Source: a virus
IMG/VR virus record: IMGVR_UViG_3300046538_000115
Span: 1-35,542 of that record
Strand: one strand, 5' to 3'
DNA length: 35,542 nucleotides
Of this stretch, positions 24,623-26,827 are shown piece by piece. The notes beneath the pieces were generated by a model, which did no database searches, was not told the origin of the DNA, and saw only the letters and a list, made by a program, of their open reading frames with translations. Numbering within the stretch: position 1 is the stretch's first letter; each line of letters starts with the position of its first letter. The position numbers and the translations under genes are program-made.

Positions 24623-24646
24623 CACGCCGCCATCATGGGCGGCGTG
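24623..24646. other. 9-bp hairpin in the leader of the lysis block
   Basis: CACGCCGCC (24623-24631) and GGCGGCGTG (24638-24646) form a perfect stem with a 6-nt loop. It lies between late element D and the endolysin ATG, so it would be in the 5' leader of the lysis transcript. No T-run follows on the minus strand. Confidence 0.5.
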
Positions 24647-24712: not shown

Positions 24713-25105
24713 CTAAGCCCAGCCTCGGCTGTGTTGAAAGATTTCTACGTGGGCGATGCTTTGCCGGTATGCATATACCAGCCGACCATACTTTTTTTGG
24801 ATTGGCATGAAGAAGAAGTACGGCACCAGAATCCCTAGAAAGATGGTTGTCACAAGGACGATTGAAGACGCAAAAGCGATTCCGGAAAACAGCTCTATGA
24901 GGAACGTCAAAGCGCCTAAGACCATCCAACCTACGATGGGATTGAATATCATTTTTTTACGAGCATCTGCCAGACGTTCGCGCAGATGAATGAGTAGCTC
25001 AGTCACTTCCTCGCGACTTCGGCTAGTCAGATCATCCAGGCCATAGTTATTGATATTGCCGCCAGCCACTTGCCCGACATCGCCATTGAATGACTGATTT
25101 CCCAT
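24713..25105 (-). CDS. Two-helix membrane protein with FxGxVGQ motif
   Basis: 130-aa protein of unknown function. Residues 6-20 (FNGDVGQVAGGNINN) carry the motif shared with the two genes at the top of this cluster. A helical charged region (about 30-50) leads to two membrane segments (about 52-72 and 78-100). The motif end would be cytoplasmic if the helices form a hairpin. AAGGA lies seven bases before the ATG. It is the last gene of the presumed repressor operon, a good position for a lysogenic conversion or superinfection exclusion factor; that role is inferred. Confidence 0.75.
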   Translation of the reverse strand: MGNQSFNGDVGQVAGGNINNYGLDDLTSRSREEVTELLIHLRERLADARKKMIFNPIVGWMVLGALTFLIELFSGIAFASSIVLVTTIFLGILVPYFFFMPIQKKYGRLVYAYRQSIAHVEIFQHSRGWA

Positions 25106-25204
25106 ACTTACATCCTTCGTTTGTTTGGCTGCCGCATTTCAATCATAGCCTTAACCGGCTCAGGAGCTGCCGGTTTAATCCAATGTTCAGAACCCACGCT
25201 TGAG

Positions 25205-25762
25205 TCAGCTTTTGCAGTGGGCTGGCTTGGGGTTCGCAATGACTTCTTTTGTCTCAGGATCGACAGTAAAGACAGTGAGGCACTCTCGACCACCACCAAA
25301 TTTTTTCTTCAGCTCCGCATCGCTTTCAGCATCCGCCTTCGCTGAAATTACAGGATCAGCAGATTGAAGGCAGTCATCTCGCTTTTCCTGATACTCATTC
25401 AGGGCATCTTTAATTGAGCCGGGTATTTTTTCAACACCACCGTTATGAGCTGCAGCCAACTGTGCACTCCACCAGCTACGGGAAAAATTACCAGCTGCAA
25501 AGCAACTGCCAAGTGGCTCAAAGATAGTGTTGCCGAACTGACTTTTCCCTGACTCCACTAGCGAGGAAAAATGCTTGCTGTGAGCACCAATGGCGGCCAG
25601 ATCGCCGCTCTTTAATATGGCAATACCGTCAGTCATTGCTTGGCTGAGGGCGCTCATTTGTTTAGTGGCCTGCTCCAACGACTCAGGGCTTGCCTTCTTG
25701 AAAGGCTCAGCATGAGCAGCTACAGAGATCAGCAACACGAACGTACAAAAAATTCCTTTCAT
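25205..25762 (-). CDS. Secreted protein of unknown function in lysogeny cluster
   Basis: 185-aa protein with a clear Sec signal peptide (MKGIFCTFVLLISVAAHA, cleavage expected after AHA) and so probably periplasmic. The mature part is helical and has cysteines near residues 108, 133, 161 and 183, which might form disulfides. No family recognised. GAGGG lies nine bases before the ATG at 25762 (a TTG at 25765 is an alternative). It is flanked by the two motif-bearing membrane protein genes, which suggests a joint envelope-related role expressed from the prophage. The 99-nt gap after it holds nothing I can name. Confidence 0.75.
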   Translation of the reverse strand: MKGIFCTFVLLISVAAHAEPFKKASPESLEQATKQMSALSQAMTDGIAILKSGDLAAIGAHSKHFSSLVESGKSQFGNTIFEPLGSCFAAGNFSRSWWSAQLAAAHNGGVEKIPGSIKDALNEYQEKRDDCLQSADPVISAKADAESDAELKKKFGGGRECLTVFTVDPETKEVIANPKPAHCKS

Positions 25763-25816
25763 CAATCACGCCCTCTACAAGTTCCCTATTGGCTTTACCC
25801 TGACTCGAAAACTCTC

Positions 25817-26407
25817 TCAGAACCAAATTCTACCGACCAGTACGCCTAAGCAAAACAAAACGGCAGCGTTCTGTTTATGCACGACCAGGAACTCTCTGAT
25901 CGAGATTGCTTTAGGCTCAATTGGAGACGCTTCTGGCTGTTTCATCGGCTGAAAGCGCTGAACAAACTCTAACGTTTGTTGAAGCTGTGGTTTCTGAAGG
26001 TTTATGAGCTGAGTGCGTCCGAAGCTCAACTCACAGAAATTGTTCATCTCAGCCTTCGCATCTTTTTCAGCTACGGCCCGTAACACCTTGCCCACCAACC
26101 GACGTTTATCGGCCTCTTCTTGTAGAAGCTCAAGCCTTGCTTGTATCGCGTTTCGTGCATCGACGAACTGCTCTGCAGTGATCTCGCTGATCGTGGTCAC
26201 TCCAAGTTGAGCGTGAACTCTACGCCAAACATCACGAGGGTCATCACCCAACTCCTCGCACTTTGCGCGTAATTCATGCAGCTCTTTACGCTGAGCAGAT
26301 ACCAGGCTCCGAGTCTCGATCTTGTCAACGAGACTGATGCTGACACCATAGTTATTGATATCGCCCGCCGCCGCTTGGCCTACATCACCATGAAAGTCCT
26401 GACTCAT
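25817..26407 (-). CDS. Tail-anchored protein with FxGxVGQ motif and ORF6C-like segment
   Basis: 196-aa protein. Residues 5-19 (FHGDVGQAAAGDINN) carry the shared motif. Residues about 55-90 (DVWRRVHAQLGVTTISEI...FVDARNAI) resemble the ORF6C/P22-antirepressor C-terminal type of domain. A charged helical part follows, and residues 178-195 form a C-terminal membrane anchor. AGGAG, inside the last codons of the repressor gene, is its ribosome site, so the two are co-translated. A regulator or sensor tethered to the membrane is plausible; function is unknown. Confidence 0.75.
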   Translation of the reverse strand: MSQDFHGDVGQAAAGDINNYGVSISLVDKIETRSLVSAQRKELHELRAKCEELGDDPRDVWRRVHAQLGVTTISEITAEQFVDARNAIQARLELLQEEADKRRLVGKVLRAVAEKDAKAEMNNFCELSFGRTQLINLQKPQLQQTLEFVQRFQPMKQPEASPIEPKAISIREFLVVHKQNAAVLFCLGVLVGRIWF

Positions 26408-26410
26408 GGG

Positions 26411-26827
26411 TTACTCCTTGGATTTCATATCCCCAACATTGAAGGTAACGCCTGACTTGTTGGTGACGTTGCCAGCCACAGACTGGCCCACCGACCCGTG
26501 GAACGTTTGTTTAATTGGGGCAGAGCCAGCTGTGACCGCCGCGATAGCAGCCGCTTTAACTGCTAATGGAGCGGACCTGAATTTCTCAAGCAGCTCTGTT
26601 TCATCTGCGGTGAGTGAACCCGCAGATCTCTCACCAGTAACGATATACAGCGTATCTGCACCGACCTTCGCCAGCGCAGCTAGGTAGTCCGCACCGGGAT
26701 ACCTTTCACCTTGCTCGTACTTCAGCTGAGCAAGCTTCTTGACGCCCCCAATAGCCCCGATAGCTGACTGGCTATAGCCCAGTCGCTCTCGCTCCTCTCT
26801 AAGGCGCTCTCCGATATTCAAAAGCAT
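26411..26827 (-). CDS. c: HTH repressor (Cro/CI family), lysogeny regulator
   Basis: 138-aa protein with an N-terminal XRE-type helix-turn-helix (residues about 5-65; GERLREERERLGYSQSAIGAIGG, then KYEQGERYPGADYLAALAKVGAD). There is no S24 peptidase domain, so RecA-type self-cleavage is unlikely. Residues 109-123 (FHGSVGQSVAGNVTN) match the motif at the N-termini of two downstream membrane proteins. It is divergent from the early operon and probably represses it through the operator region at 26.84-26.86 kb. The absence of a cleavage domain suggests induction through another signal. Confidence 0.85.
   Translation of the reverse strand: MLLNIGERLREERERLGYSQSAIGAIGGVKKLAQLKYEQGERYPGADYLAALAKVGADTLYIVTGERSAGSLTADETELLEKFRSAPLAVKAAAIAAVTAGSAPIKQTFHGSVGQSVAGNVTNKSGVTFNVGDMKSKE

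Follow-up and report, generated by a model that had tools for sequence, protein, structure and literature searches.

This report concerns a 15-residue sequence motif in the immunity cluster of the virus record IMGVR_UViG_3300046538_000115. The whole 35.5 kb record (35,542 nucleotides, referred to below as the window) was analysed, and it derives from a Pseudomonas phage or prophage of the Mu-like, B3-like kind. Three proteins of the cluster carry the motif: the immunity repressor P0003, in its C-terminal tail, and the membrane proteins P0002, encoded by the next gene, and P0001, both in their N-terminal heads (Table 1). These three copies are real and far above chance. A similar pairing of a repressor tail with the head of a partner protein recurs, in many sequence dialects, in Mu-like, P2-like and other prophages of Pseudomonadota. 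The sequence comparisons make it probable that the motif is a short homotypic tag, which links the immunity repressor to a partner that is most often a membrane protein, and which may serve in lysogeny control.

The motif in the window may be written V-G-Q-x-x-x-G-[DN]-[IV]-x-N and is rich in G, N and D. The original prediction had aligned the three copies without gaps, and the same residues were found here. The best ungapped 15-mer scores with BLOSUM62 are 56 for P0003/P0002, 47 for P0003/P0001 and 67 for P0002/P0001, compared with null means of 22-23, and in none of the three pairs was the observed score reached by any of 5000 shuffles. P0004, whose gene lies between those of P0002 and P0001, has no excess similarity to any of the carriers in the same shuffle comparison. 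The predicted sharing of sequence between the repressor and otherwise unrelated membrane proteins is confirmed in the window, while the predicted adjacency of the carriers stands in part: the genes of P0003 and P0002 are 3 bp apart, and that of P0001 is separated from P0002 by P0004.

The motif regions are of low confidence in the single-chain AF2 models (P0002 residues 1-29, pLDDT about 38-48; repressor residues 104-115, below 50), and the helical body of P0002 is predicted with confidence. It had also been considered that the motif could be a structured part of a known globular domain. This is largely contradicted by the predicted disorder, and as a candidate explanation it is unsupported by the structure models.

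The spread of the motif in adjacent phage genes, put forward as a check of the original prediction, was found: it is met repeatedly at the C-termini of repressors and the N-termini of the proteins encoded next to them. Its occurrence in single unrelated genes with no adjacency, which would have spoken for the opposite, is largely contradicted by the survey of repressor loci. A search by way of P0002 gave 32 viral loci (loci are designated here by L numbers or by phage names), in which the motif is present at the head of nearly all homologues and in the adjoining repressor tails. Tailed repressors are present in phages of Pseudomonadaceae, Enterobacterales and Burkholderia. Within a locus, the version of the motif at the end of the repressor matches the one with which the next gene product begins. 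This match was found in B3/Ps59, KS5/AP3/Carl1, KS10, L064-L067, L109-L115 and L121-L163, and further in L187, L194, L202, L206, L223, L224, L229, L246, L247 and L250.

The repressor of B3, for example, has ISVTGDGNRTAGRDFHE and the next gene product IEVTGSNNIVAGRDFIE, while an E. coli prophage has LNISGGNNRIAGRDYNE in the tail and VNSNGSNNRVAGRDFHE in the head. The corresponding tails and heads are F-x-G-A-[SN]-[IV]-GQ-x-V-TGDV and F-x-G-[ED]-[IV]-GQVAGGDV in KS5/AP3/Carl1, SGSGITQVGS and SGFGIIQVAGD in KS10, QQFNGPVGSVTSGDV and QQFNGAVEQVAAGDI in L147, GQIAGGNIYT and EQIAGRDIYN in L157, NSNIANNSINIGNNISG and QDIANNSINIGNNIAGG in L202, GNGNVQIG and GNGNFQAG in L229, and IIENVAGRDINIG and VHHLAGRDVNIT in L250. 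The Q and N dialects may be variants of a single motif, as intermediate forms such as that of L157 suggest. The fact that the dialects change in step in both proteins suggests mutual recognition through the tag. Such pairs are common: the E. coli pair, in a P2-like prophage (L067:2544-3614), covers 509 of the 5426 complete E. coli genomes; it is annotated merely as an HTH protein and a membrane or hypothetical protein. The KS5-type partners gave no more relatives among the viral contigs.

The pairing was compared with tails and heads re-paired between loci. For 30 clusters, obtained by reducing the loci to below 50% identity and including loci chosen after their similarity had been seen, the mean local score of matched tails and heads is 50.2 compared with 30.9 after re-pairing, and none of 200,000 permutations reaches it. 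Because this set is partly hand-picked, an unpicked set based on the repressors is the fairer test. It was built from every repressor that the repressor profile returned over the sampled genomes, with two biases (the profile came from mostly tailed repressors, and the best-scoring frame was taken where there were several next-gene candidates), and its 57 repressors with a usable next gene give a mean of 29.5 compared with 20.3 re-paired (0 of 100,000). When the nine loci from genomes already used are removed, the values are 26.1 and 19.5, again with no permutation reaching the observed mean. The presence of the tag in the 57 loci, called by a regular expression written after the sequences were seen, is tail and head in 14, tail only in 1, head only in 2 and neither in 40 (Fisher 2e-10), so that a head goes with a tailed repressor and is almost never present beside a tailless one; by eye, the "tail only" locus L224 has a head, and L247 has a tail.

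A chance likeness of low-complexity, Gly/Asn-rich protein ends would be in keeping with a motif so rich in G, N and D. However, the probability of this is negligible in view of the shuffles (0 of 5000 for each pair) and of conservation in tens of loci, and chance similarity is refuted by the shuffle, re-pairing and presence tests.

It is also very improbable that the match is a functionless by-product of duplicated or gene-converted DNA, or of the joint inheritance of neighbouring gene ends. These ends are 3-100 bp apart, and recombination is common here, as in the swaps of HTH domains described below. However, P0003 and P0002 have 9 residues of the motif in common and just 3 codons, and among 395 identical tail-head residues the same codon is used in 182, while local codon usage predicts 180.8. 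Synonymous positions are thus randomised, which means that the match has been kept at the protein level and that recent DNA copying or gene conversion is no explanation; a gene conversion or DNA repeat is ruled out by this codon saturation. Moreover, joint inheritance cannot explain why, in each dialect, one protein should finish with a sequence like that with which the other begins, and in the window P0001, the third carrier, is more than 1.3 kb away.

A tree of 46 partner bodies contains 8 changes of head class. Head and tail class agree in 43 of the 46 loci, as called by regular expressions that mislabelled the tails of the window, L031, L148 and L149. Two of the misses, L148 and L149, are artefacts of these expressions, the tails holding both VGQ and QQFNG, and in L129 the head is in another frame. 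Independent contrasts for the N class give 5 in agreement and 0 against (sign test, p 0.06).

The domains to which the tags are attached have been exchanged. In one prophage lineage, L109-L115, the HTH domains are swapped (L111-L115) and the tail and partner are constant; these loci form a natural series for the switching of immunity specificity. The Q tail is found on different HTH families (L020-L046). Among the partner bodies, those of phrog_5825 are like Flk and the SSAP C-terminal domain (CTD) with a tail anchor, those of phrog_6521 are KS5-type with one transmembrane (TM) segment, and others are two-TM proteins (B3, L066) or zinc-ribbon and TM proteins (L194, L202, L206, L223). The last of these, found also in L251, represent a second partner type, in which a zinc ribbon (CPxC...CxxC) and TM segments stand behind the tag directly 3' of tailed repressors. 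According to hydropathy, most partners have membrane segments. Where the repressor is tailless, the same partner family is headless (L045/L047/L145 and L141), and in L051, where P0002 is reduced to a remnant, the motif is retained by the P0001 homologue. An element NSGNINFGTQ or NNANINFGTQ is present in some partners (L045, L047, L141, L142, L145, L155) and persists where the head tag has been lost. It is possibly another interaction motif.

Several observations weigh against a tag that links repressors to membrane partners. About 1/4 to 1/3 of the partners are without a clear TM segment, for example those of KS10, L187, L224, L229 and L250. Komp_PAO1_1 has a tail and no head anywhere in its genome, and in L249 and L232 a head-like sequence follows repressors without a recognisable tail. 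The independent-contrast sign test by itself does not attain the 0.05 level. Tail and head are often 3-100 bp apart, so that joint inheritance adds to the class agreement, though not to the tail-head similarity itself. Finally, the structure models are supported by 28 and 38 sequences only.

The partner body was also compared with better characterized proteins. In Gregale (OR683403.1), L217:1782-2585 codes for a 267-residue CI-like repressor in which an HTH domain is joined to a helical body akin to that of the partner family. This fusion repressor is without a membrane segment, and its layout matches phrog_17822. It provides the classic fusion argument for a joint function of repressor and partner. 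The 274 genomes searched for phrog_17822 fusions gave separate genes only (L185), and the partners could not be named from the curated family libraries. Residues 28-161 of P0002 resemble Flk, the flagellar secretion switch inhibitor (NF007987), with E 1.7e-14, but the score of 53.9 bits compares with a curated cut-off of 353 bits, and P0002 is not a member of this family but contains a related domain. In Flk the domain occurs twice and is accompanied by a C-terminal anchor, whereas P0002 has one repeat and is found in a phage context beside a repressor. The partner body (P0002; L165-L184) is related to this host flagellar switch protein, and Flk may share ancestry with a phage regulator.

Weak profile matches to the phage antirepressors (Ant/ORF6C) were found with phrog_245 (E 3e-4 for P0002 and 4.8e-6 for L064) and phrog_2127, while ORF6C against the Carl1 partner gave E 0.015, which does not reach the cut-off. 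The partner differs from these antirepressors in that it is located in the repressor operon and has the tag and, in most cases, a membrane anchor. A first Foldseek structural search gave nothing with E <0.001, and it was a second comparison that pointed to the helical bundle of Rad52-like/Red-beta annealase CTDs. Residues 35-98 of P0002 superpose on the CTD of the 80alpha Sak annealase (8qe9) with Z 7.8 and 1.7 Å for 60 residues, and the body superposes on 6m9k with Z 6.9 for about 60 residues, both Z values being below the caution level for helical bundles. In a solved complex the SaPI2 Stl repressor binds the Sak CTD (PMC11846896); there, however, the CTD is part of an annealase and no shared tag takes part in the binding. 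The likeness of the P0002 body to the Stl-bound Sak CTD is suggestive only.

These comparisons allow us to propose how the tag might work. The disordered C-terminal tail of the repressor would bind the disordered N-terminal head of the partner by means of the same tag. The tag would probably take up beta structure on assembly, tail and head binding by beta complementarity, and the repressor would be recruited to the membrane or into a mixed assembly. As a rule the partner has its anchor in the inner membrane and its head on the cytoplasmic side, so that the repressor would be tied by the tag to a platform at the membrane. The partner would most plausibly set the amount of free active repressor and, through it, the maintenance of lysogeny or induction. 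Candidate functions are thus the control of induction, sequestration of the repressor or an abortive response. P0001, the second tagged membrane protein in the window, could join the same assembly, and the dialects would keep co-resident prophages apart. In this proposal we infer physical binding, a contact of beta or amyloid type, membrane recruitment and an effect on induction.

It is possible, but rather unlikely, that the tag is a non-amyloid co-folding element, forming a discrete beta-hairpin or beta-arch hetero-oligomer with no templating, for example a complex in which repressor and partner combine in fixed proportions, or a pair resembling antitoxin and toxin. The motif is short, the gene spacing is like that of two-gene operons, the repressor model contains a weak hairpin at residues 119-131, and the helical body has the profile relation to antirepressor families given above (phrog_245, E 4.8e-6 for L064). 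However, homotypic identity of the two partners is typical where an assembly is self-complementary and unusual in ordinary hetero-binding, and the single-chain models are disordered at the motif.

The original prediction had likened the distribution of the motif to that of RHIM-like amyloid motifs. The matched motif in adjacent genes bears this out, while the strict RHIM core fails in all tags: the RHIM/PP core G-[IV]-Q-[IV]-G (PMC7885112) has no strict match in any tail or head of the non-redundant set. A direct assignment as RHIM or BASS3 was rejected for this reason. The likeness to RHIM, fungal PP and BASS3 consists of a Gly/Asn/Gln-rich core with a conserved Q, and the L229 dialect contains V-Q-I-G. 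Similarity to three published signalling-motif peptides (PMC8086366) is weak, with shuffle fractions of 0.007 and 0.013 for the archaeal and fungal peptides and 0.17 for BASS3. The N dialect GQGNRVAGRDF / GEGQIAGGNIY aligns with GGNEVSGGNFY of the fungal sigma motif (Nectria; PMC8086366), but this alignment is short and of modest significance, and the carriers are unrelated. A RHIM-like motif, GNGNVQVG, is present in the next-gene protein of L249, after a repressor without a recognisable tail.

The arrangement may be compared with BASS (NLR-Bell pairs, Dyrka et al. 2020; PMC7889193). There, too, a short motif is common to the products of adjacent genes, many sequence families are matched within pairs, and one carrier is often a small membrane-targeting protein; the NLR-associated amyloid motif pairs were likewise found by comparing the products of neighbouring genes (PMC7889193). 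According to the permutation and presence tests, the phage pairs do have a matched motif in adjacent genes. However, the carrier is a phage HTH repressor and not an NLR (NACHT/NB-ARC), and the tag ends are reversed: the C-terminus of the repressor corresponds to the N-terminus of the NLR, and the N-terminus of the partner to the C-terminus of the BASS partner. The family library gave no match to a Bell (HeLo-like) domain in the second carriers, no search being made with the Bell profile itself. Because there is no NLR, no Bell match and no strict RHIM core, and the tags are reversed, the phage pairs appear to be a variant beside BASS and not a member. The literature searched, which included few subscription journals and few preprints, contains no precedent for repressors with amyloid tags or membrane partners.

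Amyloid signalling with cell death, modelled on the fungal NLR/HET-S or bacterial NLR/Bell pairs, would make the repressor a receptor or seed and the membrane protein an effector. A change in the repressor on induction or superinfection would then template a cross-beta assembly and stop the cell or the incoming phage. We consider this unlikely, although the matched Gly/Asn-rich short motifs in adjacent genes, with one carrier usually a membrane protein, would fit it, as would VQIG in the L229 dialect, the resemblance of the N dialect to the fungal sigma motif (L109 tail, Smith-Waterman score 43) and that of the Q dialect to a tested archaeal NLR peptide (PMC8086366). The strict RHIM core is missing, the mean likeness to known motifs is marginal (shuffle fractions 0.007-0.17), the carrier is a DNA-binding repressor and not an NLR, and PADLOC gives no match for P0002 or P0001.

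The cluster is located on the minus strand, in the apparent operon order P0003, P0002, P0004, P0001 and terminator-like hairpin. The HTH domain of P0003 (residues 5-68) matches the P22 C2 repressor 1adr with E 3.7e-5 (phmmer), and P0003 matches phrog_8, a transcriptional regulator, with E 1.8e-12. The early genes and transposase are divergent from P0003 within the window, and both its HTH homology and its position in the immunity region opposite the early operon agree with a P22 C2-like repressor. The likely ribosome site of P0002, AAGGAG, is located within the last codons of the repressor. P0002 has a single C-terminal hydrophobic segment, residues 180-196 (hydropathy), while P0001 is a chain of 130 residues with a long hydrophobic stretch, residues 53-94. 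P0001 has no relatives in phage or plasmid records and, by its body, relatives at only three further viral-contig loci; homologues retaining the motif are found in L020, L022, L023, L034, L048, L051 and L132-134. P0004 (phrog_23218) is part of the cluster in many related phages, and Komp_PAO1_1, which lacks the tagged partner, is one of them.

Table 1. Features of the immunity cluster and the three motif copies, in positions of the window.
Feature	Position	Strand	Description	Basis
P0003	26411..26827	-	HTH immunity repressor (P22 C2-like) with disordered C-terminal tail	phmmer, PHROG, AF2
Motif copy 1	26459..26503	-	P0003 residues 109-123, FHGSVGQSVAGNVTN, followed by strand-like segment GVTFNV	
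P0002	25817..26407	-	Partner: motif head, SSAP-CTD/Flk-like helical body and C-terminal membrane anchor	phrog_5825
Motif copy 2	26351..26395	-	P0002 residues 5-19, FHGDVGQAAAGDINN	
P0004	25205..25762	-	Periplasmic or secreted protein without the motif, between carriers 2 and 3	phrog_23218
P0001	24713..25105	-	Short membrane protein with motif head	
Motif copy 3	25046..25090	-	P0001 residues 6-20, FNGDVGQVAGGNINN	
Terminator-like hairpin	24623..24646	-	Downstream of the cluster	Consensus match only

The immunity repressors of temperate phages are usually seen as DNA-binding proteins that are inactivated by RecA, antirepressors or peptides. If true, a matched tag that joins the repressor to a partner would feed into the lysis-lysogeny decision in a new way. 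A bolder interpretation, which we advance tentatively, is that temperate phages of Pseudomonadota wire the lysogeny switch by a prion-like self-templating tag, the repressor and membrane partner co-assembling and the dialects preventing cross-talk. If this is true, it would be the first amyloid signalling with a transcriptional repressor as the receptor. The dialects provide a built-in test of specificity, in which Q is swapped for N. The motif would also be a manageable system in which to ask if signalling of the amyloid type is at work in unicellular bacteria and the phages that infect them.
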